61,468 nt of DNA from a virus: positions 1 through 61,468 of IMG/VR virus record IMGVR_UViG_3300025308_000073; one strand, 5' to 3'. The position numbers and the translations under genes were made by a program. Position 1 is the stretch's first letter. Every line of letters starts with the position of its first letter. Shown here piece by piece: positions 4,368 through 35,573 of this stretch. The notes beneath the pieces are model-generated. The model saw only the letters and a program-made list of their open reading frames with translations. It did not search any database and had not been told where the DNA came from.

Positions 4368-5381
4368 TCATCGTGTAGCTCCTGTGTGGTTAAGCATTGC
4401 TTGGTAAGAGCGCAGTGCATCTGTTCTGTCGCGCCCGCCTGATTCATGCTGGCGCAAGCGCTGGTGATACCGACCTCGGATGTAGCGCCCAGCAGATATG
4501 TGCTGCGGCCAGACGACGTAGCCGAGGAATGGAATGCCAGCGCTCGCCGGCGCAAGCCGAATCTTGTGCGGGTGGATAGTCAGGCCGTCATTGGCCAGCT
4601 TGACGGTGATCAGTTCTCGCAGGGTTTGCAGTTCTTCGCGCGATTCACCCAGGATGACTATATCGTCCACGTAGCGGATGTACCGGTGGACGCGCAGCGT
4701 TTCTTTGATCCAGTGGTCGAAGTCGTTCAGGAATATGTTGGCGAATAGCTGGCTGGACAAATTGCCGATGGGCATTCCCTTGGCCGCCGTCTGCCGGTAC
4801 AGCGTGCCAGCATCGAACAAGTGATCGTAGCTGCTATCCGTTTGGAACGAGTCGATCAGGTTGACCAGTAGCACGCGCAGTTCGTGATCTCCGATGTAGC
4901 GCAGCACGCGCTCTTTCAGCAGTGCATGGTTGACTGAGTAGAAATACTTGCTGATGTCGAGCTGCAACATCCAAGTGGCTTTATCGCTGCGGGCGAATTG
5001 CGCCAGCCTACGCACGGCGGCATGGGTGCCGCGACCGGGCAGGTTGCCACAGGTGTCATGGATGAACCTCGGCTGCCAGATTGGTAGCATGTACCGGTAC
5101 AGCATCCAGTGAATGATGCGGTCTTTCATTGGAGCATCCACCACGTCGCGCCACTTCTTCTCGCGCACGGTGAATGTCTTGTACGAGCCGAAGGTATATT
5201 TTCGCTCGCGCAGTCTTTTTTGGATTGTAATCAGGTGCCGCAGCGGATCAGTAGAGAAGCGCTGAATGCGCAGGTTATGCGATTTGTTCTTTCGGGTGTT
5301 AAGCCAGCAAGTGAATAGGTTGGGTAGGCTGGTAAGGTGATGGAAGTCACTGCCGCATTCCACTGCGCCGCCCGTAGGCAT
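4368..5381 (-). CDS. DGR1 reverse transcriptase
   Basis: A 337-residue group-II-intron-like RT of the diversity-generating retroelement type. Motifs: LQLDISKYF with the first catalytic Asp (about 142), KGMPIGNLSSQLFANIF (about 201-217, the DGR-specific SQ motif) and YVDD (237-240); no maturase or RNase H domain. It copies TR RNA with errors at adenines. The frame stays open up to 5642, but that part covers the TR, so a start near ATG 5381 (GGAAAC upstream) is chosen. The exact start is uncertain. It lies immediately downstream of TR1 in the order target A, MSL, TR, RT. Confidence 0.92.
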   Translation of the reverse strand: MPTGGAVECGSDFHHLTSLPNLFTCWLNTRKNKSHNLRIQRFSTDPLRHLITIQKRLRERKYTFGSYKTFTVREKKWRDVVDAPMKDRIIHWMLYRYMLPIWQPRFIHDTCGNLPGRGTHAAVRRLAQFARSDKATWMLQLDISKYFYSVNHALLKERVLRYIGDHELRVLLVNLIDSFQTDSSYDHLFDAGTLYRQTAAKGMPIGNLSSQLFANIFLNDFDHWIKETLRVHRYIRYVDDIVILGESREELQTLRELITVKLANDGLTIHPHKIRLAPASAGIPFLGYVVWPQHISAGRYIRGRYHQRLRQHESGGRDRTDALRSYQAMLNHTGATR

Positions 5382-5500
5382 CGCAGCGGTTTCCGGTTGG
5401 GCATGTTGCCGTGCTTTTGGAACTTGCGCTCCTGGAGATTTTCGACCAAGAGTTAACCTTCCGTGGGTATCCCCAGCGTCTAGGCCGTTTTTTCTTGGGT

Positions 5501-5615
5501 CAGCGGAAGCCGATGTTGTCGTTGCGATTGTCGGGGTTGTCGTTGTTGAGATTGAAGACGCCCGCATGCGAGTCGGAATACCAGTAGCTGCCCCGAATGA
5601 GCGCATTGCCAGACC
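5501..5615 (-). repeat. DGR1 template repeat (TR1)
   Basis: 115 bases aligning without gaps to 6559-6673 (VR-A) and 11505-11619 (VR-B). The coding strand has 26 adenines. VR-A differs at 15 and VR-B at 23 of them; the other 89 positions are unchanged in both. The 3' end GGCTTCCGCTG is shared; just beyond it TR reads ACC where both VRs read CAC, a plausible IMH*/IMH difference. It lies between the MSL and RT genes. The translation is lectin-like (SYWYSDSHAGVFNLNN) but it is not itself a gene. Confidence 0.95.
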
Positions 5616-5638
5616 TTTCAGAAAACCCCCATCGTTGT

Positions 5639-6487
5639 TCATGGCTGCGCTCCTTGTGAGCGAATGAGCCCGCCAACGAGACGACCAAGTTCAACGGCTA
5701 GACCCGCTCTATGCTCAAAGTTGAGCGCGAGCATTCCTAGCCTTTGAGCCTGTGCGAGATAGTGCTTGAGCAAGTCAACATCGGCTGAAATTGATTTAAG
5801 CAGGAGCTGTTTATTGTCCTCAAGGCCGTACGCCATGACGCCGCGCATGATTCGACCGATGCAAGTGCGCATGTTTTCACCATAGGTTGCACGAATATCG
5901 CGAGACATTTTGATGATGTCCTGCATGATCTGCGTGTCCAAGTCTTGCGCTTTAGCCTTGAGTTGAAACGATGCAGAATCAGGGCTGGCTAACAACTGGG
6001 TGGCCGCAGCCTTGTTCACCTCGCCGCGTTGCATGAGATCGTCTATCACATCACAGATGACTTTCGTTGAAACGGATTCCAGTACCGAATTGTTTCCTGT
6101 TGGCTGATTTGAAACATAGACCGTGTGTCCATCCGCCTGATTGCCGAGTGCTACAACGTAGGGGATACCGAAATCTTCAACGACAGACCATAACCGACGC
6201 TTGAAATTGCCAACTGGAAAGCCAATGCGAATATGCGGCTCGGTGGACGCTCCAACGAGCTTGAGCTTATATTTTTTCAGTGTGGCCAGCGCGTATGCCG
6301 TGCGGTCGTAGCCATGGAGGAAATTGCCGGATTGCACCAATATCAAGTGGCCGGCGTGTTTTTCTTCCAGCTTCTGCGCGATGGTCGCCACCGGATCAGC
6401 CTGCCCAAGTCCGGCCTCAATGCCCTTGAAGGCGCTGATGCTGAACTCTCTGAGTTCGTCGCTTGTCGGTGTTGGTATTGCTTGCAT
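5639..6487 (-). CDS. DGR accessory protein: MutS-like domain fused to an Avd-like helical bundle
   Basis: A 282-residue protein. Residues about 40-140 resemble MutS domain I (HLILVQSGNFLHGYDRTAYAL, then GFPVGNFKRRLW and GIPYVVA), the MSL accessory type described for DGRs. Residues about 185-280 form a helical bundle ending FEHRAGLAVELGRLVGGLI, which matches the free Avd of DGR2 (GEHRYLALSRLVDELGRMLGG). Avd-type proteins bind TR RNA and RT and are needed for mutagenic cDNA synthesis. Start ATG 6487 follows CAGGAAC. It sits between target A and TR1. Confidence 0.85.
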   Translation of the reverse strand: MQAIPTPTSDELREFSISAFKGIEAGLGQADPVATIAQKLEEKHAGHLILVQSGNFLHGYDRTAYALATLKKYKLKLVGASTEPHIRIGFPVGNFKRRLWSVVEDFGIPYVVALGNQADGHTVYVSNQPTGNNSVLESVSTKVICDVIDDLMQRGEVNKAAATQLLASPDSASFQLKAKAQDLDTQIMQDIIKMSRDIRATYGENMRTCIGRIMRGVMAYGLEDNKQLLLKSISADVDLLKHYLAQAQRLGMLALNFEHRAGLAVELGRLVGGLIRSQGAQP

Positions 6488-6509
6488 GATGTTCCTGGTT
6501 AATTTTCTA

Positions 6510-6537
6510 GGTCACGGCTACGCCGCGACCCGTGACC
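6510..6537 (-). other. Hairpin downstream of VR-A
   Basis: Stem GGTCACGG / CCGTGACC (8 bp) with a 12-base GC-rich loop, five bases after the target A stop. An identical copy lies after target B (11456-11483) and none follows the TR. In Bordetella phage BPP-1 a hairpin or cruciform just downstream of VR is needed for efficient retrohoming; this is the likely counterpart. It could also act as a weak terminator, but no T run follows. Confidence 0.7.
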
Positions 6538-6542
6538 AGCGA

Positions 6543-7226
6543 TCAGAGACTCTTGGTGCAGCGGAAGCCGAAGTAGTCGCCGCGATTGCCGGGGTTGTCG
6601 TAGTTGAGACTGAAGACGCCCGCACGCGAGCCGGAACACCAGGAGCCGCCCCGAACGAGCGCAAAGCCAGACCAGTTCCGCTCTCCGTCAGGACGCCAGC
6701 CCATTCCCTTTTCTTGGGATGGGTAGGGTGCTGTGGTCAGGCTTGGCGAGTCAGCCTTGATGGTGGTGGTCAATCCCTTGTCGTCTCCCTGGATGTCGTC
6801 GAATACCCACGAAAAAACATTGCCGTTCAAGTCGCAAACCTTCTCTCCGTTTGATAGCGTCAACCAGCGGCGTTCTTTGGCATCTGGCGACTGGAAGTTG
6901 CCTGGCTGCGCGCTGGACACATTGCCTTTGCGTAGGCCACGGAATAGCTTGCCTTCACCGACCTTGCCCTTCGTCCAGTTGCAATCCTGCGCCGCGACGT
7001 TGTGCCGGATCGCCAGTTCTTGAGATTCGGTGATGAGTTTGAACCCAGCCTCTTCGCACGCTATCTTTGCTTCCTCGAAGGTGATGCTCACCCATGGCGC
7101 GCCATCGGCGGTGATGACGGCTTTCCCATCAGCGCCCTTGCTGCAATGAAACTGACCTACCTTGAAAGCGGGGACGACAATGCCGTTCGGCAGTGTCATT
7201 TCTGGGACGGTGATAAATTTGTTCAT
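6543..7226 (-). CDS. DGR1 target protein A (FGE-sulfatase/C-type-lectin fold)
   Basis: A 227-residue protein of the formylglycine-generating-enzyme-like lectin fold used by many DGR targets: ISITFEEAK-type helix near residue 50, LSNGEKVCDLNGNVFSWVFDD about 125-145, GMGWRPDGERNWSGFALVRGG about 175-195 and C-terminal GFRCTKSL. VR-A occupies residues about 185-223. AAGGAG precedes ATG 7226. There is no signal peptide, lipobox or membrane segment. It lies between DUF2303 and the MSL gene in the early operon. The last 301 bases of its region match target B except inside the VR. Its ligand is unknown. Confidence 0.9.
   Translation of the reverse strand: MNKFITVPEMTLPNGIVVPAFKVGQFHCSKGADGKAVITADGAPWVSITFEEAKIACEEAGFKLITESQELAIRHNVAAQDCNWTKGKVGEGKLFRGLRKGNVSSAQPGNFQSPDAKERRWLTLSNGEKVCDLNGNVFSWVFDDIQGDDKGLTTTIKADSPSLTTAPYPSQEKGMGWRPDGERNWSGFALVRGGSWCSGSRAGVFSLNYDNPGNRGDYFGFRCTKSL
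6559..6673 (-). repeat. DGR1 variable repeat A (VR-A)
   Basis: Ungapped 115-base match to TR1 with 15 substitutions, all at template adenines (T on the plus strand). It encodes the surface-loop part of the lectin fold. It ends with the shared GGCTTCCGCTG, followed by CACCAAG, the stop and the hairpin. Confidence 0.95.
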
Positions 7227-7273
7227 ACGTTCTCCTTGATGCCGCCACTAACTCCAAAGTGGCGGCAATTACG

Positions 7274-8110
7274 TTACGCCGCAAATGGCTTGCCATGAAA
7301 CATTGGGAATCCGGTTGCATCCTTGATATTGGCAGTGAGCGTCTTGGCCGCATCTTCCAGCACCTTGTCAGGGCGGTTCAGCTCGTACCAGAAATCAACC
7401 CTCCCCGCCTTGAGCTGATATTTGAGACGCGCTTCAACCATGTAGGCAGTGCCTCCCCAGAATACCGGCACGCCGATCGCGAACTTACTGAATACTTCCA
7501 TGCTTTTTACCGTCTCGGCGTTGCTGTCCTCGACGTATTCCATGCGCACGCCCCCTGATTGAAGGCGAATCGCGCTCTTGATGGTGGAGTCCTGCGCGAT
7601 TTCCAGATTGGTCGCCATCGTGAGCATCGCCGTGCCGGATGGGAAGCCGTCAACTGTTGCTATGTCGCCCATGTTGTCCTCGATCCAGCAGGCGAATTCA
7701 GCTTGGCTAAATCTCTGGCGATCTTTGTTTGTCCAGCGTTGCCACTCTACCGACTTGGCCGGAGCCAGTTTGGCGATGTGATCGCGCCATTGCTGTCCAT
7801 TCACCTCTTCGCTGTGGTCATTGATGATGCCGGTGTATGCAACAAGCCCTTTTTGGTAGTCGGCCTCACACCAAATTGTTGCGCTGGCAAGCGAGCCGTG
7901 GCGCTTGAGGTAGGAAATAAAGCCTTCTGCGTCGGCCAGCGAGACGGACGCCTTCTTGCGGCGCGGCGTTGGTTGCATGTGCCCGGTGTCTTCCAGCTTC
8001 CAGCCTTCCGGCACGGCATTCATGTCGGCGCTGAGCGCGAACGGCTTGCGCGCCTCGCGCGCCACGGTGGCGGCGATGTTTTCTGCTTCTTGCTTGATAG
8101 GGTCGGCCAT
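7274..8110 (-). CDS. DUF2303 (YfdQ-like) phage protein
   Basis: A 278-residue protein of the DUF2303/YfdQ family, found in phage early operons near recombination genes. Recognisable segments are SLADAEGFISYLKRHGS, AYTGIINDH and SQAEFACWIEDNMGDI. Start ATG 8110 follows GGGAGCG and comes one codon after the upstream stop. No enzymatic motif is evident and the role is unknown; co-occurrence with YqaJ-type exonucleases suggests a link to phage DNA metabolism. Confidence 0.85.
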   Translation of the reverse strand: MADPIKQEAENIAATVAREARKPFALSADMNAVPEGWKLEDTGHMQPTPRRKKASVSLADAEGFISYLKRHGSLASATIWCEADYQKGLVAYTGIINDHSEEVNGQQWRDHIAKLAPAKSVEWQRWTNKDRQRFSQAEFACWIEDNMGDIATVDGFPSGTAMLTMATNLEIAQDSTIKSAIRLQSGGVRMEYVEDSNAETVKSMEVFSKFAIGVPVFWGGTAYMVEARLKYQLKAGRVDFWYELNRPDKVLEDAAKTLTANIKDATGFPMFHGKPFAA

Positions 8111-8112
8111 GA

Positions 8113-8451
8113 TTATTTCGCTCCCACTTGTTTGAGTTCTGACGGGGTTTGTGCAGCAACGGCCTTAAGTTCCAGCTTTTGCTGCCTTGGATCTTCGGTC
8201 AGAAGATTGCCTTCCGGTGTGGCGAACATCAGCGTTGCGTCAGGTGCCTCCATCGGTTTGCTCATCTTGATGTCGCCAACTACGGCCATAGCCGCTTTGG
8301 TGGATTTCTTGATGGCGATGGTCAGGGTGATCTTCCCGGCCTTGCCGGTGGAATCAACAGCTGCGACGAGTTCTGCCAGTTTTTCGCCTGCTTCGTCGAG
8401 AAACGTGCCGCCCATCAGGTGCCGAAGTGTTTCGTGGATTGGTTTTGCCAT
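8113..8451 (-). CDS. Conserved phage hypothetical protein
   Basis: A 112-residue protein (MAKPIHETLRHLMGGTFLDEAGEKL at the start, then a beta-rich part with KITLTIAIKKSTKAAM). This gene type commonly precedes DUF2303 in phages. AAGGAG precedes ATG 8451. No recognised domain, no signal peptide. Confidence 0.75.
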   Translation of the reverse strand: MAKPIHETLRHLMGGTFLDEAGEKLAELVAAVDSTGKAGKITLTIAIKKSTKAAMAVVGDIKMSKPMEAPDATLMFATPEGNLLTEDPRQQKLELKAVAAQTPSELKQVGAK

Positions 8452-8486
8452 GATGCTTTGCTCCTTTTGTGAGTTGAAAAAAATTA

Positions 8487-8729
8487 CTATGCGTCCAGCT
8501 TGGTAAATTTGTGCGCGCCCTTGATATGCTTACCCAGGTGAGAGCCAGCCGATTCAGCGTCACGCATGGCGTTAAACTTTTCTTGAGGCACGTCGTGGTA
8601 GTGGTACACGCCGCCACTGTGAAATTTCACTGCCATTGTCTTGCTGGTTGGGTCGTATCCGATCGAGTGAACCTGACTCGACGTCTTGACCGGGTTCAGG
8701 GTTATTTTGATTGGGCTTTGTTTTTTCAT
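8487..8729 (-). CDS. KTSC-domain protein
   Basis: An 80-residue small protein of the KTSC family: VKTSSQVHSIGYDPTSKTM, then VKFHSGGVYHYHDVP and AESAGSHLGKHIKG. The family is named after a KTSC motif (here KTSS) and is frequent in phages next to recombination genes; it may bind nucleic acid. Start ATG 8729 overlaps the exonuclease stop and has GGAAGG upstream. Confidence 0.85.
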   Translation of the reverse strand: MKKQSPIKITLNPVKTSSQVHSIGYDPTSKTMAVKFHSGGVYHYHDVPQEKFNAMRDAESAGSHLGKHIKGAHKFTKLDA

Positions 8730-10354
8730 GCTGCCTTCCTTTCTTCGTGCTGAATGTCGCCACGGAACTCTTGCAGAATCCAGTCGAGCATCATTTCTTC
8801 CGGCAGCCCGAAGTTCTCTGAAAGCACTTCGAGTATTTCTGCGCGGCTGGCGCGTGTGCGAGTTGCCGGACTGAATCCCGCGACAACGGTTTTCGCGCCA
8901 GACAGTTTTACCGGCTGCGCCTGTGCGGCCAATTGCGCTTGCTTGCGGCGTTCTTCGACGGCGGCGGCTTCCGATTCGGCGCGCGCCTTGGCCTCTTCCT
9001 CGGCTTGCATTGCCGCGCGCTGTGCTTCGAGCCGTGCTGATTCATCCGCTTTTTGCTTCTCGATGCGGCTGGTGATGGTCAAGGTGAAGTCTTCCATCGG
9101 CTTCACCATCAAAGCCTGCAAATCCGGGAATAGCGCACCGTAACCGACTGCGTTTTCCTTGCACCAGGCCAGCTTGGCGCAAACGTCCTTGGTTTGCGTA
9201 TCGGCGGCAATCTTCACCCCAGCAAGCATGGTTTGGATAGCATCGTGCATGCTGGCGTAGTTGCGCTTGCCCTTGATCGCCTCGGCAAAGTTGGGCGGAG
9301 CCAGCGTTATGCGGATCGGCTTGATTTCCGCTTCCAGCGCGGTGATGTGGTCGGCGTAGGCTTGCCTGCCTTCGAGCACCATTACTTCCTTCTTGGCCTT
9401 ATCCTCGCGCTCCACATCCTTTTCGAGCTGCAGGGCGGTGCCGTTCAGGTCTTTCACCCATGCGTCCATCTTGCGCGCGGCCTCACCGATGGTTTCGGTT
9501 TGCGCCAGCATTGCTTCCTTGGATAGCGCAATGGCCTTGGCCGTCTCGCGGAACTTTTTGGCCGCTTCCTTGGCGTTGGAAAAATCCTGATCCGTCACAA
9601 GCGCGATGGCGCGCACTTCGGCGAGTTTGGCGGTCAGCGCCACACCGAAGGCTTCCATGTTGTGTTCGGTTATCTCGCCCCTGGCGTGAACAAAGAGGGC
9701 GGGCAGTTCGATGCACACTTCGGCCTTGGGCTTTTCGGTGTGCTCGATGTGAACGTAGTTCTCGCGGTCTTTGTTGAACTGTACCCAGCCAGACAGAATG
9801 CGCTCGAACCAAACCGGATCAGGCATCACTTCCATGCTGACCATGTTTTCCTCTGTGCCGTCCGATACCGTGAAAATCCACTTTTCCGCGCCAGTGACAA
9901 GCAAAGCCTGTTGAACCTGCGGCATGTGGGTATCAGGCAATTCATAGCGAGCCACTGCGGAAGCAAGCTCCTTATTCCATTGCTTGTGCTCCCAGCCGAT
10001 AGTTCCGTCCATCGTAATCCCATCGCAGGACGCAGACGGGCGACCGCGCGAACAGATAAGCGGGAACAGTCGAATTCCGAATTGCTTTGCGACTATAGGC
10101 CGCGCCAGAGCTTCAACTTCGTGGCCGTAGTCCAGAATGTTCTTTTGCACCCAATCGCAGAATTCCTTGGCGATGCCGGACGATTTCATGCGCAGCAGTT
10201 CTGTGCGTGTCGTGGTTTTTGACAGGCCGAGCATTGCAGCGGCTTCGCTTGATCCGTCATGCTCAAGACGGAAATCCAGCCATTCCTGAGTACCCTGAAT
10301 AAGCTCATGCTCGACAAGTGGGTTTTCTTGGAGCCATTGCTGTACGTCGCTCAT
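8726..10354 (-). CDS. YqaJ-family (lambda-exonuclease-like) recombination nuclease with C-terminal extension
   Basis: A 542-residue protein. Residues 1-210 form the YqaJ/lambda-Exo fold: GTQEWLDFRLEHDGSSEAAAMLG, the helix with GHEVEALARPIV, then the catalytic CDG...GWEHKQW (Asp, Glu-x-Lys) and HMPQVQQALLVTGAEKW. It would resect dsDNA 5'-3' for single-strand annealing. The remainder is long, charged and coiled-coil-like with an Ala/Glu-rich stretch near 440-480. ATG 10354 follows the stop of the upstream gene within one base. It acts with the upstream protein and SSB. Confidence 0.88.
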   Translation of the reverse strand: MSDVQQWLQENPLVEHELIQGTQEWLDFRLEHDGSSEAAAMLGLSKTTTRTELLRMKSSGIAKEFCDWVQKNILDYGHEVEALARPIVAKQFGIRLFPLICSRGRPSASCDGITMDGTIGWEHKQWNKELASAVARYELPDTHMPQVQQALLVTGAEKWIFTVSDGTEENMVSMEVMPDPVWFERILSGWVQFNKDRENYVHIEHTEKPKAEVCIELPALFVHARGEITEHNMEAFGVALTAKLAEVRAIALVTDQDFSNAKEAAKKFRETAKAIALSKEAMLAQTETIGEAARKMDAWVKDLNGTALQLEKDVEREDKAKKEVMVLEGRQAYADHITALEAEIKPIRITLAPPNFAEAIKGKRNYASMHDAIQTMLAGVKIAADTQTKDVCAKLAWCKENAVGYGALFPDLQALMVKPMEDFTLTITSRIEKQKADESARLEAQRAAMQAEEEAKARAESEAAAVEERRKQAQLAAQAQPVKLSGAKTVVAGFSPATRTRASRAEILEVLSENFGLPEEMMLDWILQEFRGDIQHEERKAA

Positions 10355-10355
10355 G

Positions 10356-11423
10356 TTATTCACCGTTCCCTTCCTGCTGCCATGAGTCGATGGTCAGCTT
10401 TTGATCTTCAGTAAGGATCATCGCGCTGGACAACGTGGTGATGACCTTCTTGGCCTTGAGTTTGCCGCTGCGTACTTGGCTTTCGTATTCCTTCGCCAGT
10501 TCGGCGAATTGGTCGGCGGTGCATTCCTTGATTCCAGGCTTGCTGGATGGCGGCTTGCCCGCGTCTCCGTTCACGCCGTTATCAGTCTTGTTCTGCATCG
10601 CAGTCGCCCAGGTTGCCTCACCATCCTTGATCGCGCCATAGATGCCGCGCAGCGTGACGATCTGCGCCGGAGAGCACTTCTCAAGTCCGTGCCCGAGATA
10701 GCCAGTCAGATCGGTGGCGCTCACGCCTATGGCCGCGAAAGCGTCCACGATCTTCTTGCGCTCTGCATCTGGGTCTTTCGCGGCATCGTCCAAGCGAATT
10801 TTCTTGATGATCTCTTCCGCTTCATCGCACAGATCGCCAGGGATGATGCGCAGGCCAAGCGAGCGCATTGCCTTTGAGATTAGGGCCCCGCGCTTATTGA
10901 GCAGGTCATCGTCAGTACCGAGTACGGTGTAAACGTCCTTGTTGTAGCTGTTTTTGCGCACGCTGATGTAGGAGCCGTCGCTATTTGGCTTGCTGCGTTC
11001 AACGGTTTTTGACACGCGTACGTCAAGCGGGTAGGTGATATTTGCTTCCAGGTCGGTGACTGATACGCGGTGAACTTCCTTTTGCTCATCCTCGAAGATC
11101 ATGGTGGTTTCTACCAGCACGTTCTTCATGCAGCGCAGGGCGACTTCCACAAAGCGGATGCCCAAACCTTCAACACCTTGGCCGATAGGCTTGATGTAAT
11201 AGGCGCTCTTGTTATTTGCGAAGCTCGGGCGGCGGCATTCTTTGAGCAGTTCTTGGCGTACCGAATCCATGTTGCGCGGATTGCGCATTGCCATGATGTA
11301 GCGCGATTCGACCATTGCTTTTGACTGTGCCGCGATTGCCGTTGATGCGGTTTCGACAACCGCCATAGTCCTGCCTGTTCCGCCAAAATCTTCTTGTGTT
11401 ACCAGTGCTGTTCTGTCGTTCAT
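10356..11423 (-). CDS. Putative phage single-strand annealing / recombination protein
   Basis: A 355-residue protein directly upstream of the YqaJ-type nuclease. It contains ESRYIMAMRNPRNMD, KSAYYIKPIGQGVEGLGIRFVE and ALISKAMRSLGLRIIPGD, the style of phage proteins that take the RecT/Bet/Erf place in recombination cassettes. The C-terminal 60 residues are charged. CAGGAG precedes ATG 11423. The annealing role is inferred from position and general resemblance; no catalytic motif is expected in such proteins. Confidence 0.65.
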   Translation of the reverse strand: MNDRTALVTQEDFGGTGRTMAVVETASTAIAAQSKAMVESRYIMAMRNPRNMDSVRQELLKECRRPSFANNKSAYYIKPIGQGVEGLGIRFVEVALRCMKNVLVETTMIFEDEQKEVHRVSVTDLEANITYPLDVRVSKTVERSKPNSDGSYISVRKNSYNKDVYTVLGTDDDLLNKRGALISKAMRSLGLRIIPGDLCDEAEEIIKKIRLDDAAKDPDAERKKIVDAFAAIGVSATDLTGYLGHGLEKCSPAQIVTLRGIYGAIKDGEATWATAMQNKTDNGVNGDAGKPPSSKPGIKECTADQFAELAKEYESQVRSGKLKAKKVITTLSSAMILTEDQKLTIDSWQQEGNGE

Positions 11424-11455
11424 GGTGTGCTCCTGTTGTGTTTATATTTAGCGAA

Positions 11456-11483
11456 GGTCACGGCTACGCCGCGACCCGTGACC
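11456..11483 (-). other. Hairpin downstream of VR-B
   Basis: Identical to the 28-base hairpin after VR-A (8-bp stem GGTCACGG / CCGTGACC, 12-base loop), five bases after the target B stop. Perfect conservation in two places 4.9 kb apart, and absence after the TR, point to a role in target recognition by DGR1. Confidence 0.7.
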
Positions 11484-11488
11484 AGCGA

Positions 11489-12397
11489 TCAGAGACTCTT
11501 GGTGCAGCGGAAGCCGATGCTGACGCCGCGACGGTCGGGGCCGCCGCCGCCGAGACCGAAGACGCCCGCACGCGAGCCGGAACACCAGCAGCCGCCCCGA
11601 ACGAGCGCACCGCCAGACCAGTTCCGCTCTCCGTCAGGACGCCAGCCCATTCCCTTTTCTTGGGATGGGTAGGGTGCTGTGGTCAGGCTTGGCGAGTCAG
11701 CCTTGATGGTGGTGGTCAATCCCTTGTCGTCTCCCTGGATGTCGTCGAATACCCATGTGTAGCAATTACCGGCGAAGTCATAGATGCGCTCACCGTTGGA
11801 GAGCTGGTGCCAGCGGCGCTCTTCTGCATCGTCGGATTCGTAGGTTCCTTCCTGCGCTTCACTGACGTTTTCTTTGTGGATTCCTTGGAAAATCTTGCCT
11901 TCGCCGACCTTTCCGCCAGTCCAGTTGATGTCTTGCTGGCTGATGTCGTATGCAATCGCCAGCGCGCGGGTTTCAGCGAGAAGGTCGTAACCAGCAACGG
12001 CGCACGCCTTACGCGCCTCGTCGTAGTTGATCTCAACCCAAGGCATTGCGTCAGCGACCGACTGTGGAATTCCTGCTAGGCCGCGTGATGCGATGTACTG
12101 AGCAACTTGGAAGGACGGAACCACTTTGCCGCTGGGCAGCGTTACTTCCGGCACTGTGATGAAAACGCTGCTTGCCTTAACCGTTGCAGCCACTTTTGCG
12201 CGCAGCTCGGAAGCCAGCAGAGGGTATTCAGCCGTGCACGATTCTGCGTATGCCGCAATGGCTGGCATGGTGTGCTTGTCAGTAGTGAGATTGAGTACGA
12301 AGTATTCATCGCCAAAGTGCTTACCGCCTGGCGCATCTGTTCCGTCGGTGCGCGTGACATTGAATTTGTTGTAGATGCCTTGTTCGCGTTGGTTCAT
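11489..12397 (-). CDS. DGR1 target protein B (phage N-terminal domain plus FGE/C-type-lectin domain)
   Basis: A 302-residue protein. Residues 1-70 (YNKFNVTRTDGTDAPGGKHFG, YFVLNLTTDKHTMPAIAAYAE) resemble a small stand-alone phage early protein. Residues about 78-302 are a lectin/FGE domain homologous to target A, with LSNGERIYDFAGNCYTWVFDD and C-terminal GFRCTKSL. VR-B is at about 260-298; its template adenines are so heavily substituted that the loop reads GLGGGGPDRRG. AGGAG precedes ATG 12397. No signal peptide or membrane anchor. It lies upstream of the annealing-protein gene, 5 kb from TR1. Confidence 0.9.
   Translation of the reverse strand: MNQREQGIYNKFNVTRTDGTDAPGGKHFGDEYFVLNLTTDKHTMPAIAAYAESCTAEYPLLASELRAKVAATVKASSVFITVPEVTLPSGKVVPSFQVAQYIASRGLAGIPQSVADAMPWVEINYDEARKACAVAGYDLLAETRALAIAYDISQQDINWTGGKVGEGKIFQGIHKENVSEAQEGTYESDDAEERRWHQLSNGERIYDFAGNCYTWVFDDIQGDDKGLTTTIKADSPSLTTAPYPSQEKGMGWRPDGERNWSGGALVRGGCWCSGSRAGVFGLGGGGPDRRGVSIGFRCTKSL
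11505..11619 (-). repeat. DGR1 variable repeat B (VR-B)
   Basis: Ungapped 115-base match to TR1 with 23 substitutions, all at the 26 template adenines; 89 non-adenine positions are unchanged. It is more diverged than VR-A, consistent with more rounds or an independent retrohoming event. Confidence 0.95.
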
Positions 12398-12460
12398 TTC
12401 TTTATCTCCTGTTGGTTAAATTTCGCTACGTTGCGATGCCGTCTGATTTGCGCTCGGCAC

Positions 12461-12598
12461 TCATCGCCGCCCCGCAGGAATGACCATCCGCGCCATACGG
12501 ATTGCATCACCAAGCCGGTGTCCGCGTTGCAGGTAATACAGGACGTTGTTGGCGAGTTCGTAGGCGCGCAGAATGCGCTGCTCGAGTCGGCGGATCAT
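12461..12598 (-). CDS. Small basic hypothetical protein
   Basis: A 45-residue ORF (MIRRLEQRILRAYELANNVL at the start) that starts within the stop of its upstream neighbour (ATGA overlap), suggesting translational coupling. It is helical and Arg-rich, with no recognised domain. It was found by reading the minus strand between the two larger genes. Confidence 0.5.
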   Translation of the reverse strand: MIRRLEQRILRAYELANNVLYYLQRGHRLGDAIRMARMVIPAGRR

Positions 12599-12921
12599 TT
12601 CAGTCCCTTCATCAATTTCAATCTGGTACATTGCGACATCACATCGTCAAACGGCACGATCTCCTGCCTGGCACAGCGCGCCATCAGTGCGCTTTCCTTC
12701 CGGGCTGATTCAACCGCAACAAACGTGTCCATGCGATGCTGCGCGACATCACGATAATCTGCCGTGACCATCCATAACACCACCGCTGCCGCAACCCCTA
12801 TAACTGCGTAGAACAGCGGCGTGGCGTGTTTCTCAATTTCATCCATGCGCTGATTCTCGCGTGCGATTTCAGCGCGGCGGTTGAGTCTGTTTGCGATGTG
12901 CTGATGAGCGAGTGTTGTCAT
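12595..12921 (-). CDS. Small single-span membrane protein
   Basis: A 108-residue protein. ATG 12921 follows GAGGAG, so a 26-codon in-frame extension upstream is not used. A charged helical N-terminus (RLNRRAEIARENQRMDEIEK) is followed by one membrane segment (YAVIGVAAAVVLWMV, about residues 38-52) and a helical tail. It overlaps its upstream gene by 4 bases. Function unknown; it lies near the head of the early operon. Confidence 0.7.
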   Translation of the reverse strand: MTTLAHQHIANRLNRRAEIARENQRMDEIEKHATPLFYAVIGVAAAVVLWMVTADYRDVAQHRMDTFVAVESARKESALMARCARQEIVPFDDVMSQCTRLKLMKGLK

Positions 12922-13274
12922 GCCGCTCTCCTCATCATTTCGCCGTCGCGCTTGCGGTCGTGGTGTTCGTCGCTTCGTGCGGCAGCGCATTCGTCGCATG
13001 GGCGTTTGGCTGGACGCGCTTCATAGTTGATTTCCTTCATGAGCGCGTCTGAGGCATCCTCCAATTCGCTGGCGCTGCCAACCAGCGACGACACCCGGTC
13101 TGCCAAGCTGTTTATGATGTGCTTGCATTCCAACAGGCTCGCGCCCTCGATGAAGCGCGCCACATCAACCAGATCATCCAAACGGCTCATTTTGACCGCC
13201 CTAGCCTGAGCCGATTCCATCATCGCCTGAATGTCCGGCAGCTCCATCAGATTGTTGAAAGTGTTGTGAGTCAT
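12918..13274 (-). CDS. First gene of the early left operon, hypothetical
   Basis: A 118-residue helical protein (FNNLMELPDIQAMMESAQARA, then ARFIEGASLLECKHIINSLADRVSSL) ending in a charged tail with two close Cys (PCDECAAARS). GGAGG precedes ATG 13274; an upstream in-frame start lies in the untranslated leader. It is the promoter-proximal gene of the left operon, a place where phages often encode antiterminators or host-takeover proteins. No family is recognised. Confidence 0.65.
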   Translation of the reverse strand: MTHNTFNNLMELPDIQAMMESAQARAVKMSRLDDLVDVARFIEGASLLECKHIINSLADRVSSLVGSASELEDASDALMKEINYEARPAKRPCDECAAARSDEHHDRKRDGEMMRRAA

Positions 13275-13575: not shown

Positions 13576-13593
13576 GGTGTGTGGTTTGGTAAG

Positions 13594-27607: not shown

Positions 27608-27641
27608 TCACACAGGCTTCCAGGCAATCTGGAATTTATTG

Positions 27642-27664: not shown

Positions 27665-27682
27665 CGTTTAAGGAGAAGCAAC

Positions 27683-28957: not shown

Positions 28958-29021
28958 CCGCTGGCAATTGAGTTAGGCCGGCATCTTCCGGCCTGACTTT
29001 CTATTTTTCAAGGAGAGCAAC

Positions 29022-29453: not shown

Positions 29454-29510
29454 GCGTCAAATCGTTGGGCGGGCTTCGGCTCGCCCACATCAATTTCCAA
29501 GAGGTGTCCC

Positions 29511-30272
29511 ATGAAAAAAATATACATCGCCAGCATCGCGCATCTTGCGCTGGCCGCATTGAGTGATTTTGCAGGTGAGCAGAATGTGATTCACGAATTC
29601 GATCAGCTGCCAGATGCGCAAAAGGATGGCTTGATTGCTGGCGTGGATATGCTGATCGCCAATAAAGACGCTGGCGCAGATGCGCGGCACAACGCATGGA
29701 TGGAAAATATGCTGGCTGATGGCTGGAAGTTTTCCAAGAAGCGCAGCGACGAGGCCAAAACGCATCCGCGTCTGGTGCCGTTCGATCAACTGCCAAAAAA
29801 GGAGATTGCCAAAGAGAAGCTGCTGCATGCAATCGTGCGCGCCATGGAATCAAGCGACATTCCGAGCGTATCAGTTGCCTCTGTACCAAAGCCTGCTAGC
29901 GCTGCTGGAACCGTGCCTATCAAGTACATCGGCAAGAAGAGCGAGCACAAAGACAATTTGTACGGAACCGGGTTGGAATGGAAGCCCGGAGAAGTGCATA
30001 AAGTACCTGCCGCAGCGGCGGCCAAGATGCTGGCGCATACCGATACCTACGAACAGGATGGCAATGCTGTTGCCGGTGGTGTAGCTGTGGTAGAACAAAA
30101 GAGCGATGGGCAGGATGATATGCAGGCCCCTCTTCCGCAACTGTCTGTAATGGACAAGAACGAACTGATCAACTTCGCCCAGCAGCACTTCGGGGAGAAC
30201 TTGGCTCCAGATATGCCGGAAGCTGATATGCGTAGCACGGTATTTAGTCTGGTGCAGGCAAGGGGTCTGTAA
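29511..30272 (+). CDS. RyR-domain virion-region protein
   Basis: A 253-residue protein. Residues about 25-110 include a RyR-type repeat (HNAWMENMLADGWKFSKKRSDEAKTHPRLVPFDQL, then KLLHAIVRAM), a domain shared between ryanodine receptors and phage or bacterial proteins, thought to bind nucleotides or ligands. The middle has a beta segment (IKYIGKKSEHKDNLYGTGLEWKPGEVHKVP) like head-tail or capsid accessory proteins, and the C-terminus is helical. AAGAGGTG precedes ATG 29511. Role in the virion unknown. Confidence 0.75.
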   Translation: MKKIYIASIAHLALAALSDFAGEQNVIHEFDQLPDAQKDGLIAGVDMLIANKDAGADARHNAWMENMLADGWKFSKKRSDEAKTHPRLVPFDQLPKKEIAKEKLLHAIVRAMESSDIPSVSVASVPKPASAAGTVPIKYIGKKSEHKDNLYGTGLEWKPGEVHKVPAAAAAKMLAHTDTYEQDGNAVAGGVAVVEQKSDGQDDMQAPLPQLSVMDKNELINFAQQHFGENLAPDMPEADMRSTVFSLVQARGL

Positions 30273-30904
30273 TGACCGCTTTTTCCGATATGGTGACAGA
30301 AGCCTTAGTCAACCTGCCGGAGTGTCCACAGCCTTCCGTTGAAGCGTATCTGCGACTTTCAGCTATCGAACTCTGCCGCCGTTCTTATGTGTGGCGAGAG
30401 GAACAGGCCGCTGTAAGCAAGGTTTCAACCGATTTCCCGTTGGCGCTGGTTCCTGTTGCTGGCGCGAACATCCTGCAAGTGATGTCCGTGGTAATTGACG
30501 AGAAAAGCCCGGCACTTGATCGCAGCGATGTTCATTACGAAGAAGCTGGAACGACAGATTGGCGCACGGCCACAGGCATTCCAGCGCGCTATATCGAGCT
30601 GCCGCGCGGCACGATCACGCTGATCCCGTTGCCCGCTGTTGCCGTTTCCGTGAAGCCGACCGTGGCATACGAGCCAACCATGACCGCAACATCCATTCCA
30701 GATGCAATTTATGCCGAGCATGGCAGCACGATCATATCGGGCGCAATTGCCAAGCTCGCGTTGATCCCGGGCAGGCCATGGACGAGCGGCGATCTGGCAT
30801 CCGCTCACCGGGGGATATTTGAGTCAGGCATCAGGAGCGCAAGCCGCGAATTCCATCAGCACTACATACAGCAACCAATGAGCGTGGCGACTTCACCAAT
30901 CTAA
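30272..30904 (+). CDS. Head-to-tail adaptor-like protein
   Basis: A 210-residue protein: MVTEALVNLPECPQPSVEAYLRLSAIELCRRSYVWREEQ helical start, then a beta barrel region (RYIELPRGTITLIPLP) and a helical end (ISGAIAKLALIPGRPWTSGDLASAHRGIFESGIRSA). This matches gp6/adaptor-style proteins in the capsid-tail region. It starts in the stop of the RyR gene. Assignment by order and fold pattern. Confidence 0.65.
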   Translation: MTAFSDMVTEALVNLPECPQPSVEAYLRLSAIELCRRSYVWREEQAAVSKVSTDFPLALVPVAGANILQVMSVVIDEKSPALDRSDVHYEEAGTTDWRTATGIPARYIELPRGTITLIPLPAVAVSVKPTVAYEPTMTATSIPDAIYAEHGSTIISGAIAKLALIPGRPWTSGDLASAHRGIFESGIRSASREFHQHYIQQPMSVATSPI

Positions 30905-30914
30905 GGAGAAAACA

Positions 30915-31631
30915 ATGGCAACAACCAAGGTAATCGACATCATTCGGCGTGCTGAAAAGATATTGAACGACGAAGGAGCGGTGCGCTGGACAAGGCTGGA
31001 GTTGCAGGATTGGATCAACGATGCCTACAAGGAAGTTGTTTTGTTGCGGCCAGACGCCAATTCGCAAACCGCCACCGTCACGCTTGCCGTCGGAACGCGG
31101 CAGAAATTGAGCGACGCAGGCACGATCAACTTGCCTACCGCGCTGCGCGTGCTGGACGTGATCCGCAACATGGCGGCGACATCAAACAAGCGCGCGGTGC
31201 GTTTTGTGGATCGACGGGTGCTGGACGATCAGTTGCCTGGGTGGCATGCGGAAGAGCAGTCGGTAAATGTCGTTCACTGGATGTTTGACATCCGCACCCC
31301 AAAAGAATTCTTAGTTTATCCGCCTGCTACAGCGCTTGCACAGATCGAACTGGCTTATTCGAGCGTGCCAACATCTCATGCGCTTAGCGCTGGTGCGCTT
31401 GATCCTGACGGAGCGGATACGACTGTCATCAGCCTGGATGACATCTACGCGAATGTCATTTTGGATTATCTGCTGTATCGAGCCTACTCGAAAGACGCAG
31501 AGTACGCCGCCAATGGCCAAAGAGCGATCAACCATATCAATTCTTTCAACGCATCGCTTGGCGCAAAAACAACCACAGACATTGCGACAGCTCCGGCAAG
31601 CGTTACCCCAATGACCCAGCGCGGCGCGTAA
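30915..31631 (+). CDS. DUF6682-like virion protein
   Basis: A 238-residue protein: IIRRAEKILNDEGAVRWTRLELQDWINDAYKEVVLLRPDA, then LPTALRVLDVIRNM and LDDIYANVILDYLLYRAYSKDAEYAANGQRA. This arrangement is that of phage proteins filed as DUF6682, always in the head-tail connection region and partnered with adaptor genes. AAGGAG precedes ATG 30915. Confidence 0.72.
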   Translation: MATTKVIDIIRRAEKILNDEGAVRWTRLELQDWINDAYKEVVLLRPDANSQTATVTLAVGTRQKLSDAGTINLPTALRVLDVIRNMAATSNKRAVRFVDRRVLDDQLPGWHAEEQSVNVVHWMFDIRTPKEFLVYPPATALAQIELAYSSVPTSHALSAGALDPDGADTTVISLDDIYANVILDYLLYRAYSKDAEYAANGQRAINHINSFNASLGAKTTTDIATAPASVTPMTQRGA

Positions 31632-31644
31632 GGAGAAAGCAATC

Positions 31645-33870
31645 ATGTCATGGTACAAGTCGGGCACGGTATCGGTAACGAATGGCTCTGCCTCGGTAGT
31701 TGGTGTCGATACGCTGTGGGCAACCCAGGCGGCGGCGGGCGACATGTTCACGTTGGACGGTTCAATATTCTACGAGGTGCTGTCCGTCACCGATAACACG
31801 CACCTGGCGCTTGCCAGCATTTATGCCGGGACAACGCTTTCCGCGCAGGCATACGCGATCATCCGTAATTTCACCAGCACGACCAATGCGCAGTTGGCAT
31901 TGAATCTGGCCGACATGATTAACAAGTGGCACCTGTCGCTGGACGAGCTGCTGACATGGCTGACATCGCTTGGTTCTGTAACTTTGACTAATCCGGCAAC
32001 CGGATCGGCTGTTTCTGTTAAAACGCCATCGCAGATTCAGGCTGAGTGGATCGGAGCACTATCAAAGGCAATCACCACGGCGGATGTGGCGCTGACTACG
32101 ACTGAAGCCAGCAATGCTTTCATCAAAGCGACCGGTGCGCTGACCGGCAACCGATCAATGACAGTGCCTGCAGCACAAGGGCATCTGATCGCATTCGAGA
32201 ATGCCACGAGCGGCGCTTACACGCTGACGGTCAAAACCCCGGCTGGTACTGGCGTGGTGGTAGGGCAAAACGAACGGGCGTTGCTGTTTTGCGATGGCAC
32301 GAATGTAGTTAATGCGTTTACCTCTGCTCCAGGCATAAATGCTGCTGATGTGGCGAATACTCCATCAGGGAATGTTACAGCAACTAACATGCAGGCGGCT
32401 GTAAACGAGTTGGATGCAGAAAAGGCAAAATTGGCTGGCGATGCCGCACAGGATTTCTCTGCAAAGAACCTGACTTCCACTGGAAATGCCACTCTCGGCG
32501 ATTCTGCCGCCGACATGCACATTGTCAACGGGCCGATGGTATTCAATCATGGGTTTGTTATTGGGAGTCAGTCTGTAACGGTGAGCAATATCGGCACTCC
32601 CGGCGCAGCCGGATTCGGCGTTGGCATCTGCCCGTCCGCGCCTGCCGGGATGTATCCGTTGAGCAACGGCACATTCAGCCCGTTCGACGACGACTACGGC
32701 AATTACATCTACTCCGATGGCAGCATCATGGTGTGGATTCCGGCGTTTTATTACAAATATGGAACAGGCGCGAATGGGCTGGCGGTGAACGTCGTGGACA
32801 TCAAGCCGCTCGGGTATTTCGTGACGGCCGCGAATTCGCCGTTCAAGAGCGCAGCATTATTTGCGGACGAGGTGACCGCCGCGAACGCCGCTGGCTATGC
32901 GCTGCATCGCGCATTCTATGACGGCGGTGCGCTGCAATATGGCGTGTTCGTGGATAAATACAAATGCTCGAATAATGGCGGCACGGCGTCCAGTATCAGG
33001 ATCGGCAATCCACTCTCCAGCGCCGCCGCCAACAATCCATTCAGCGGGCTGACCGGAGCGCCCGCCAATGCTTACTACGGCGCAATCGCTGCCGCCAAGA
33101 CGCGGGGGGCGAGCTTCTTCCCTTCCAGCCTGTTCATCCGCTCCGCGCTGGCGCTGCTGGCGCTGGCACACGCACAAGCCTCAACCGCAGCGACCTGGTG
33201 CGCCTGGTACAACGCGACCTACAACTTCCCCAAGGGCTGCAACAACAACGCGCTGGGCGACGCGCAGGATAGCGCGCTGACATTCACCTCCGCCGGCAAT
33301 GCGACCTACCCGACGGCGAACAAGACCGGCAGCGCCAATGTGCTGGCGAAAACTACGCACAACGGGCAGGCCTGCGGGGTGGCGGACGTGAACGGCACGA
33401 TATGGGAAGTTTGCCTCGGGCTGACCTCGAACGGCACAAATATCTACATCCTGAAAACGTCCGCCGCGATGAAGGATATTACGTCCGGAAACACACTGGC
33501 GACAGACGCTTGGGGTGCGACCGGCATCGCCGCGCTCTATGACGATCTCGGCACGACGCATGGCGCGCTATGGGCGACAGGCGCAAGTCGTGTTGTCTAT
33601 TTTGGCGCGGCCACTCAGGTGTTCGATGCGGCAACCAGCGGCAACGCATGGAACGCGGCGGGCGCTGGCGTGCCGCTGGCAGGTGGGGTCGGCGGAACCA
33701 ATGCATTCGGTAATGACGGCCTGTGGGACTACAAGCCCAATGAGATGTGCCCGCTCGCCGCCGGCGCCTGGAGCAACTCGTCGAATGCCGGGGTGTGGGC
33801 GTTGAATCTCTGCAATGCGCGGGGCGGCTCGTACAGCGACGTGGGGTTGCGCGCGGCCTTGTATCTCTGA
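31645..33870 (+). CDS. DGR2 target: tail fibre / receptor-binding protein
   Basis: A 741-residue protein. The N-terminal 120 residues look like a virion-attachment module (GTVSVTNGSASVVGVDTLWATQAAAGDMFTLDG), the centre is beta-rich with a GALTGNRSMTVPAAQG stretch, and residues about 300-741 form a lectin/FGE-like C-terminal domain (WCAWYNATYNFPKGCNNNALGD, CGVADVNGTIWEVCLGL). The extreme C-terminus is VR-C (about 701-737, WSNSSNAGVWALNLC...). AAGGAG precedes ATG 31645. Diversification here would change host-receptor binding, as Mtd does in BPP-1. Confidence 0.9.
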   Translation: MSWYKSGTVSVTNGSASVVGVDTLWATQAAAGDMFTLDGSIFYEVLSVTDNTHLALASIYAGTTLSAQAYAIIRNFTSTTNAQLALNLADMINKWHLSLDELLTWLTSLGSVTLTNPATGSAVSVKTPSQIQAEWIGALSKAITTADVALTTTEASNAFIKATGALTGNRSMTVPAAQGHLIAFENATSGAYTLTVKTPAGTGVVVGQNERALLFCDGTNVVNAFTSAPGINAADVANTPSGNVTATNMQAAVNELDAEKAKLAGDAAQDFSAKNLTSTGNATLGDSAADMHIVNGPMVFNHGFVIGSQSVTVSNIGTPGAAGFGVGICPSAPAGMYPLSNGTFSPFDDDYGNYIYSDGSIMVWIPAFYYKYGTGANGLAVNVVDIKPLGYFVTAANSPFKSAALFADEVTAANAAGYALHRAFYDGGALQYGVFVDKYKCSNNGGTASSIRIGNPLSSAAANNPFSGLTGAPANAYYGAIAAAKTRGASFFPSSLFIRSALALLALAHAQASTAATWCAWYNATYNFPKGCNNNALGDAQDSALTFTSAGNATYPTANKTGSANVLAKTTHNGQACGVADVNGTIWEVCLGLTSNGTNIYILKTSAAMKDITSGNTLATDAWGATGIAALYDDLGTTHGALWATGASRVVYFGAATQVFDAATSGNAWNAAGAGVPLAGGVGGTNAFGNDGLWDYKPNEMCPLAAGAWSNSSNAGVWALNLCNARGGSYSDVGLRAALYL
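33745..33856 (+). repeat. DGR2 variable repeat (VR-C)
   Basis: 112 bases ungapped to TR2 (34300-34411) with 11 substitutions, all at TR2 adenines (24 available); the other 88 positions are unchanged. The 3' end GTGGGGTTGCGCGCGG is identical in both and then diverges, marking the start of mutagenic homology. Confidence 0.95.
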
Positions 33871-33887
33871 TGGCCTGAGCGATAGCG

Positions 33888-34298
33888 ATGGGCCTACACG
33901 ATGAAGCGAAGCTGGATCAAAAGTTCACGGAGTTTGCAAAGCTGATGAATATCCACCTCAATCACTTTCCGCGCCACGAGAAGTATGGCCTCGCCCTGGA
34001 GATCAGGCGCGCGGCCTATGAGGTCTATGGCTATATCGTCGAGGCGCAAAAGCGCTATCACAAGAAAACCACGCTTACCAACCTTGATGTACGCCACGAG
34101 CAGCTGCGCATGCTGATCCGACTGGCGCACTCGCTCGGCTATTTTGAGTTCAAGGATGGTAAGCGCGCAGATAAATCACCCGCCGCACTGGGAGAGCATC
34201 GCTATCTCGCCCTGTCCCGGTTGGTGGATGAATTGGGCAGGATGCTGGGCGGCTGGATAGTCGCCGATCGCCTGCTCGATAAACGGGAGGCGCCTTAA
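33888..34298 (+). CDS. avd: DGR2 accessory variability determinant (Avd)
   Basis: A 136-residue four-helix-bundle protein: KFTEFAKLMNIHLNHFPRHEKYGLALEIRRAAYEVYGYIVEAQ, TLTNLDVRHEQLRMLIRLAHSLGYF and GEHRYLALSRLVDELGRMLGGWIVADRL. Avd forms a basic pentameric barrel that binds the RT and TR RNA and is essential for retrohoming in BPP-1. It lies between target and TR, the classic order. No strong Shine-Dalgarno is seen before ATG 33888. Confidence 0.92.
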   Translation: MGLHDEAKLDQKFTEFAKLMNIHLNHFPRHEKYGLALEIRRAAYEVYGYIVEAQKRYHKKTTLTNLDVRHEQLRMLIRLAHSLGYFEFKDGKRADKSPAALGEHRYLALSRLVDELGRMLGGWIVADRLLDKREAP

Positions 34299-34299
34299 C

Positions 34300-34411
34300 A
34301 TGTGCCCGATCGCCGCCGGCAACTGGAACAACTCGTCGAATGCCGGGGTGTGGGCGTTGAATCTCAACAATGCGCGGGGCAACTCGAACAACAACGTGGG
34401 GTTGCGCGCGG
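34300..34411 (+). repeat. DGR2 template repeat (TR2)
   Basis: 112 bases with 24 adenines, beginning just after the avd stop. The translation (AGNWNNSSNAGVWALNLNN) is full of AAC codons, the codon type that adenine mutagenesis diversifies without creating stops. About 140 bases separate it from the RT start, comparable with the spacer RNA that BPP-1 needs for cDNA priming. Confidence 0.95.
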
Positions 34412-34550
34412 ACTCGAAGCCTCAAAGACCGCAGCTTGGTCAAAGTGGAATCAAGGGAGGCGCTTTCCGGCGCGTGGCGCAAGCCACGGCGAAATCGGCC
34501 GGCTTCCGCCTTTCTGGTAGGGCGGCATGCCGTCTCGAAGGTCGGGCGAT

Positions 34551-35573
34551 ATGAAGCGCATCGGACATCTATACGAGCAGGCTTTTACCCGCGAGGCGTT
34601 GCTGATCGCATTTCACGCGGCAGCGCGCCATAAGCATGGAAAGCGCGCTTGCTTCAACTTCGAAAAGAGCTTGGCCAGCAACCTCGACGCATTACATCGC
34701 GAGCTGACTGACGGAAGTTACCAGCCGCGCCCGTATTACAGCTTCATGGTGCATGAGCCAAAGCCGCGCCGCATCTATGCGCCAGCATTCCGAGACCTGG
34801 TGGTGCAGCACGCCATCTATCGCGTGATCTCGCCTATTTTTGAACCCGGTTTTATCGCACAATCATTCGCCTGTCGCGTCGGCTATGGGACACACAAGGC
34901 GGCAGACTACGCGCAAAGCGCGCTACAGCGCATCCCGCGCGACAGCTACACACTCAAGCTGGATATTCGCAAATTCTTCTATCGCATCGACAGGTCGATT
35001 CTGCGCCAACAGATCGAGCGCAAGATCAAGGATGCGCGCTTTATCGAGATGATGATGCAATTCGCCGACCACGGCGAACCGCAAGGCATCCCCATCGGAA
35101 ATCTGCTGAGCCAGCTCTATGCGCTGATCTATCTAAACCCGCTGGATCACTATATCAAGCGCGAGCTGGGCATCAAGCACTACTGCCGCTACGTCGATGA
35201 CTTCGTGCTGTTCGGCATCAGCCGCGAACGCGCTGTCGAGTGCCAGCGCTTGATCGTTGATTTTATCCGGCGCGAGCTGAGCCTTGAGCTATCCAAGTCA
35301 ACCATCGCACCTATGGCGCGCGGCATCAACTTCGTCGGGTATCGCACCTGGGCGAGCCGCCGCTTCATTCGCCGTCATAGCCTTGGCAACTACCGCATAG
35401 CCATGTGCCGCGGCGAGATTGAATCCGCCGCATCTATTCTCGGCCATGCGCGCCGCACTCATTCTTTGCAGCACATGCTGCGCTTTTCAAGGGAGCACCA
35501 CCATGACCACCATCGTTGCCTACCAAAAATATATCGACTCGCTAATTACGCGCGAACTGCTGCTGCCGGTTGA
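34551..35573 (+). CDS. DGR2 reverse transcriptase
   Basis: A 340-residue DGR RT: MKRIGHLYEQAF start, EPKPRRIYAPAFRDLVVQHAIYR, LKLDIRKFFYRID with the first catalytic Asp (about 138), GIPIGNLLSQLYALIYL (motif 4 with SQ, about 179-195), YVDD (214-217) and GINFVGYRTW. It is distinct in sequence from RT1 (different motif context and accessory protein), so the two DGRs are not recent duplicates. ATG 34551 is chosen for the family-typical MKRIGxLxE start. Confidence 0.94.
   Translation: MKRIGHLYEQAFTREALLIAFHAAARHKHGKRACFNFEKSLASNLDALHRELTDGSYQPRPYYSFMVHEPKPRRIYAPAFRDLVVQHAIYRVISPIFEPGFIAQSFACRVGYGTHKAADYAQSALQRIPRDSYTLKLDIRKFFYRIDRSILRQQIERKIKDARFIEMMMQFADHGEPQGIPIGNLLSQLYALIYLNPLDHYIKRELGIKHYCRYVDDFVLFGISRERAVECQRLIVDFIRRELSLELSKSTIAPMARGINFVGYRTWASRRFIRRHSLGNYRIAMCRGEIESAASILGHARRTHSLQHMLRFSREHHHDHHRCLPKIYRLANYARTAAAG

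Follow-up and report, generated by a model that had tools for sequence, protein, structure and literature searches.

Can one phage genome hold two diversity-generating retroelements (DGRs) of different descent, each with its own reverse transcriptase (RT), template repeat (TR), variable repeat(s) (VRs) and accessory protein? The usual view of a phage DGR is that of a lone switch of host range. The window analysed here, i.e., the whole 61,468-nucleotide IMG/VR virus contig IMGVR_UViG_3300025308_000073, carries a prophage of approx. 59 kb from a P22-like podovirus, in which the initial annotation had placed two complete, unrelated DGRs (Table 1). All claimed parts were found: DGR1, on the minus strand, comprises RT1, TR1, a 282-aa fusion accessory and two lectin-fold targets, and DGR2, on the plus strand, is arranged in the order tail-fibre target, free Avd, TR2 and RT2. 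It appears, with a probability of approx. 0.88, that the two DGRs are complete and independently descended and that both use standard adenine-mutagenic retrohoming, each with its own repeats, DGR2 acting on a tail fibre and DGR1 on two proteins not encoded with the tail. Each DGR would rewrite its own VRs from its own TR; DGR2 would diversify the C-terminus of the tail fibre, where receptor binding presumably takes place, and DGR1 would diversify two small C-type-lectin-fold (CLec) proteins encoded apart from the tail genes.

Each RT carries YVDD and an SQ motif (MPIGNLSSQ in RT1 and IPIGNLLSQ in RT2), and RT1 shows the YxDD and [ILVM]GxxxSQ signatures of DGR-type RTs. The shared catalytic motifs and the Avd-like partners on both sides are consistent with duplication of one DGR within the phage followed by divergence, in which case the pair would effectively be one system. 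This explanation is, however, extremely improbable. In a tree of 56 DGR RTs (with the root placed on RT1 by choice), the RT1 family forms one branch with support of 100/100, whereas the RT2 family, which includes the RT of Pseudomonas phage Bise, is supported at 98/97 and is joined, at 100/100, by the RT of a Helicobacter phage. Neither family includes the RTs of BPP-1, Vibrio, crAss-like and other phages; the two families are about 30-34% identical to each other. In cellular genomes, the relatives of RT1 belong to Betaproteobacteria (Gallionella, Duganella, Solimicrobium, Aromatoleum, Thauera, Methylotenera and others); the carriers in culture include Duganella guangzhouensis FT80W and Aromatoleum toluclasticum. 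Thus, the phylogeny that had been proposed as a check on the annotation has been run and yields no single tight clade: RT1 and RT2 are not recent paralogues. Duplication is also at odds with the unrelated TRs, the different accessory architectures and VR hairpins, and the occurrence of DGR1 alone or with other second DGRs.

The repeats also separate the two systems. When mismatches were counted over 115-nt cores (hypergeometric p), all of them fell at TR adenines: 23 of 23 for VR-A against TR1 (p 3e-21), 15 of 15 for VR-B against TR1 (p 3e-12) and 12 of 12 for VR-C against TR2 (p 8e-10). Cross-comparisons remained at background, with 44% identity for TR1 against VR-C and 37-39% for TR2 against VR-A and VR-B; homology-based retrohoming should therefore not cross between DGR1 and DGR2. 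Since the RTs lie in separate, well-supported clades and the likeness of TR1 to VR-C does not exceed background, the presence of two independent machines acting on at least three targets, as the initial annotation had suggested, is well supported.

The VRs of both DGRs have covarying hairpins downstream, which are of two different kinds. In the DGR1 family, a 9-bp stem closes a GNA triloop, and its outer pairs covary; these pairs were not selected for pairing, because the loop served as the anchor. GCGNAGC occurs at the expected place in 44 of 104 DGR1-family VR ends, compared with 0.034 expected per end. The DGR1 loop is thus a GNA of 3 nt and not the GRNA tetraloop, which is typical of phage DGRs without being a defining feature. 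Downstream of the VR, the DGR2 family has an invariant core, GAGC-GATA-GCGA (GGTA in one row), and a covarying outer stem in which 90% of the cells are paired (covariation score 0.34 vs. 0.18 when shuffled). The GATA loop conforms to the GRNA rule described for VR hairpins (Guo et al. 2011, PMC3240598).

The accessory proteins were said to be of different types, and this distinction is borne out: DGR2 has a plain bAvd, whereas the DGR1 protein appears as a fusion of MutS domain I and bAvd in Foldseek comparisons of a model built from 24 relatives. Its N-terminal half matches MutS proteins (best E 1.7e-3, probability 1.00), and its C-terminal half matches the Avd chains of 8ub7, a solved DGR RT-Avd-RNA complex, with template-modelling (TM) scores by target of 0.72-0.79. 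The Pfam bAvd score of 20.3 bits lies below the curated cut-off, Avd being the C-terminal half of the fusion. An Avd-type accessory is a usual, though not a universal, component of DGRs. A PDB sequence search with the accessory alignment returned nothing significant, and the MutS likeness is seen by fold comparison only. The Phe of a GxF motif in the MutS-I half is kept in nearly all rows of the alignment; by the fold match, it may be equivalent to the mismatch-reading Phe of MutS. This half may bind the mismatched heteroduplex of cDNA and VR. MutS-like accessory proteins of DGRs have reportedly been listed in earlier surveys. The DGR1 fusion is rare: of 300 genomes from the order, two matched its alignment, and in one of these the match covered just the Avd half; no relative was found in the phage collection.

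One of the two DGRs might be active in the phage and the other a relic, and this idea gains from the fact that the VR turnover data compare relatives of both machines rather than members of the window phage's own population. Such a state of affairs is unlikely, as all open reading frames (ORFs) and motifs are intact and VRs have turned over while TR adenines stayed fixed in both lineages, including VR-B and VR-C of the window against close relatives. Between the window and contig G001, VR-B has changed at 14 of 30 A sites vs. 4 of 93 others (TR A sites 0 of 30), and between the window and contig G002, VR-C has changed at 15 of 25 A sites vs. 12 of 90 others (TR A sites 0 of 25). For VR-B of contigs G003 and G004, the counts are 20 of 32 vs. 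1 of 91, with 0 of 32 and 1 of 91 in the TR. In G001, TR changes at sites other than adenines recur in the VR-B of the same contig, implying TR-to-VR transfer after the split. Contigs of the RT2 family with 100% identical RT and TR have VRs that differ at up to 21 A sites and at 0-1 others. In the RT1 family, the VRs of a pair with 100% identical RT and TR (L213/L214) differ at 8 of 27 A sites vs. 0 of 94 others, and those of a pair with 98.7% RT identity (L197/L198) at 15 of 32 vs. 0 of 95. The variation in related populations that was to be looked for is therefore present for both RT families, and both appear to work in nature, judging by relatives' VRs that differ mainly at TR adenines.

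Both DGRs lie between the same two copies of a 21-bp attachment (att) core and therefore belong to one prophage. To the left of this prophage, outside its left att boundary, positions 797-1928 hold a second integrase (797-1762) and an att copy. This integrase is part of an adjacent element that shares the tRNA-Leu att site in a tandem arrangement; the integrase of G002 is 63% identical to it vs. 84% to the prophage's own. Such a neighbour might suggest that the two DGRs share a contig only through joined prophages, whether by tandem integration or as an assembly chimera. This is highly improbable given that the att copies enclose both DGRs. Moreover, G002, which comes from another metagenome, carries the same two DGRs in the same order (RT identity 92% and 87%) and is circular but for three differences in its 129-bp end repeat. 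G004 and G023, with exact end repeats of 127 bp, hold two DGRs in other combinations. By their end overlaps, all three look like closed circular assemblies. In G002, the orthologue of the prophage integrase (84%) directly adjoins the SSB gene, which confirms the joining of the prophage ends.

Double DGRs thus recur among relatives: two RTs and two Avd-type proteins were found in five contigs, i.e., the window (G000), G002, G003, G004 and G023. A near-identical DGR1 is present in four of the five, with one of three different second DGRs. In G003, the second RT groups with Vibrio/Aeromonas phage RTs; in G004, it is sister to the RT of BPP-1 and has its own Avd and TR/VR. G023 combines an RT2-family DGR with a DGR whose RT has the RT of Burkholderia phage Magia as its sister, and TR/VR were found for both. 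The second DGR of G003 (locus L136, G003:C1:68568-71458) has an RT and an Avd, but the TR/VR scan found no VR for it, and its presumed target is without the usual C-terminal end; this DGR is possibly degenerate or mis-assembled. Within the close clade of the window, where RT1 identity is about 89% or higher, each of the four contigs that exceed 50 kb has two DGRs, and three second partners are represented among them; this suggests that DGR1 is retained in the early module and that its partner is swapped. A further 26 RT1 contigs of 20-69 kb, possibly fragments, hold one RT each, so that DGR1 probably exists without a partner as well. Of the records in the phage collection, 161 match RT2 and 165 match RT1, none of them with two RT places. 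Separately, the Pseudothauera genome of locus L170 has two DGR-type RT genes less than 3 kb apart on the same strand (G047:C2:10387-11463 and 12097-13107).

Taken singly, each DGR is of a known kind. DGR2 resembles the DGR of Bordetella phage BPP-1 (mtd-avd-TR-brt) in its gene order, target-avd-TR-RT, and in the GATA loop of its VR hairpin, which is of the GRNA type (PMC3240598); however, RT2, although 37.5% identical to Brt, lies in another clade (with Pseudomonas phage Bise), and the target differs, being a 741-aa tail fibre. Of the two proteins varied by the Quimbyvirus DGR, one is encoded near the tail genes and the other, apparently non-structural, on the opposite strand, but one RT and one cassette serve both targets, whereas the window phage has two unrelated cassettes (PMC8008677). 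In gut prophages, a distal second VR lies near counter-defence genes; as in DGR1, a VR target is found away from the RT cassette, but the parts of that report consulted describe a single RT and no second DGR (PMC12629997). DGRs with several VRs likewise use one TR for two or three targets, as DGR1 does; the portions of those sources consulted describe no further, unrelated DGR alongside them in a phage (PMC6642488, PMC10743442). At least two DGRs per genome are known from Bacteroides sp. 1_1_14, where they belong to different clades (PMC3521204), and multiple DGRs from Nanoarchaeota (PMC4372165), but these are cellular genomes and not one phage. In the literature searched, no phage was described as carrying two unrelated DGRs, although much DGR literature lies beyond that search and novelty is unproven. 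A phage genome with two DGRs of different descent provides a natural test bed for the orthogonality of RT/Avd/RNA sets, as well as for the part played by a mismatch-recognition domain in mutagenic homing.

What DGR1 is for is a further question. Its VRs lie at the 3' ends of CLec-fold targets, which is usual in DGRs though not universal. In a PDB fold search, the best match to the model of target A was TaqVP, a DGR variable protein of Thermus aquaticus, followed by formylglycine-generating enzymes, with Mtd lower; the corresponding PDB sequence search with the DGR1 target alignment was empty, so that TaqVP was seen by fold search. At two other loci (L168:7256-8542 and L177:5248-6354), two VRs of one TR were assigned to the same or overlapping ORFs.

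In phages, VR proteins of the CLec fold usually bind receptors, and phrog_2889 matches the DGR1 targets and the tail-fibre C-terminus alike. The targets might accordingly be minor virion or host-adsorption proteins made from the early strand, so that both DGRs would serve host range. This is rather unlikely, though not negligibly so, when gene context is considered. The DGR1 targets lie in a leftward early operon around the exonuclease gene in the window, G002 and G004. Prophage G008, whose cassette is the same as that of the Solimicrobium silvestre locus L165, has a tape measure and a different portal; its DGR1 is again situated among genes for an integrase, RdgC and an exonuclease, and a third VR target is found past a repressor-like gene. 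The targets are in the early/recombination operon both in the podovirus-like window phage and G002 and in the tape-measure prophage. In Achromobacter phage JWF, moreover, a separate gene flanked by nucleotidase and DNA ligase genes encodes the N-terminal domain of target A by itself. By inspection, no signal-like or hydrophobic N-terminus was seen in either DGR1 target. DGR1 goes with the early/recombination module in phages of different morphotypes, and DGR2 belongs to the tail module. That phages of differing morphology carry the DGR1 lineage, with its targets in the early region, speaks for some phage DGR diversification serving ends other than adsorption. DGR1 would then diversify a non-tail recognition protein; its targets would probably act within the cell or on the lysogen, not on the virion, and both RTs are presumably expressed in the lysogen. 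A division of labour is possible and is put forward tentatively: the early DGR, with its mismatch-binding MutS-I/Avd fusion, would vary recognition proteins inside the cell that serve defence, counter-defence or immunity to superinfection, and the exchangeable tail-module DGR would serve adsorption. RdgC genes stand beside DGR1 at L142:7874-8770 and L176:6766-8040 (the G008 prophage, Duganella), and none was seen in the window.

Four points weigh against two independent, working DGRs with separate tasks. In principle, each RT could also use the TR RNA of the other DGR. The Foldseek matches of the accessory are modest (E 2e-3 to 1e-1), although their probability is 1.00. For the window phage itself, support comes from the genome sequence and from relatives' VRs, not from reads or expression. 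Finally, the suggested non-tail role of the DGR1 targets is drawn from gene position and the lack of a hydrophobic N-terminus.

Table 1. Coordinates of the two DGRs and the prophage boundaries in the window.
Feature	Position	Strand	Evidence and remarks
Left att core, 21 bp	1908..1928		TGGTGCCCAGAAGAGGACTCG; prophage boundary; identical to 3' end of tRNA-Leu at 60973-60993
RT1, DGR1 reverse transcriptase	4368..5381	-	PF00078 6.4e-27; phrog_1423 1e-100; YVDD and MPIGNLSSQ
DGR1 spacer RNA region, between TR1 and RT1	5382..5492	-	Few changes, without third-position bias
TR1	5493..5615	-	TR/VR scan and comparison
DGR1 accessory, MutS domain I-like and Avd fusion	5639..6487	-	phrog_3206; bAvd 20.3 bits; Foldseek match of model
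Hairpin after VR-B	6510..6530	-	GGTCGCGGC-GTA-GCCGTGACC; covariation in family
DGR1 target B, CLec/FGE-sulfatase domain	6543..7226	-	VR-B 6551-6673; PF03781 4.8e-7
Hairpin after VR-A	11456..11476	-	Same sequence as VR-B hairpin
DGR1 target A, early-phage N-terminal domain and CLec	11489..12397	-	VR-A 11497-11619; PF03781 7.7e-6; phrog_9572
DGR2 target, tail fibre (741 aa)	31645..33870	+	VR-C 33745-33859; PHROG tail fibre families
Hairpin after VR-C	33869..33896	+	GATA loop; overlaps Avd start codon
DGR2 Avd	33888..34298	+	bAvd 5.3e-20; 72.4 bits vs. cut-off 40; plain bAvd
TR2	34300..34414	+	Comparison with VR-C
RT2, DGR2 reverse transcriptase	34527..35573	+	PF00078 2e-18; solved DGR RT 8ub7 1.8e-55; YVDD and IPIGNLLSQ
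Tyrosine integrase of prophage	59830..60810	-	ORF listed from 61014, likely Met at 60810; Pfam Phage_integrase 1.7e-22
Right att core	60973..60993		3' end of tRNA-Leu(CAG) 60973-61057, minus strand

The start of RT1 required correction. The ORF as listed spans 4368-5642, and its first approx. 87 codons (5382-5642) hold TR1 and the spacer and do not code for protein. Among eight relatives compared, changes at codon positions 1, 2 and 3 (L003) number 2, 2 and 2 in the spacer vs. 18, 7 and 92 in the RT domain; as the first approx. 87 codons lack the third-position excess of the RT domain, RT1 probably starts at the ATG at 5381. A real N-terminal extension of RT1 over TR1 is ruled out by these counts.

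The prophage encodes a P22-type portal, Phage_capsid_3, a terminase, a helicase loader, SSB and a YqaJ/RecE-type exonuclease. Similarity to a Gallionella genome begins exactly at 60973. The host-flank search gave long hits to Gallionella-like genomes; since tRNA genes matched in nearly all genomes, only the long hits are informative. Together with the repeated 21-bp core, this indicates that 1908-60993 is a prophage integrated in tRNA-Leu of a Gallionella-like host. Imperfect repeats with spacings of 90 and 180 bp occur at 39426-39766, in the gene of a 1471-aa tail protein. Adjoining the integrase, a single ORF of 4893 aa (45148-59829) combines InPase, ddrB-ParB, Eco57I methylase, SNF2, HD and helicase C domains; it may be a giant injected or antirestriction protein of the DarB kind.

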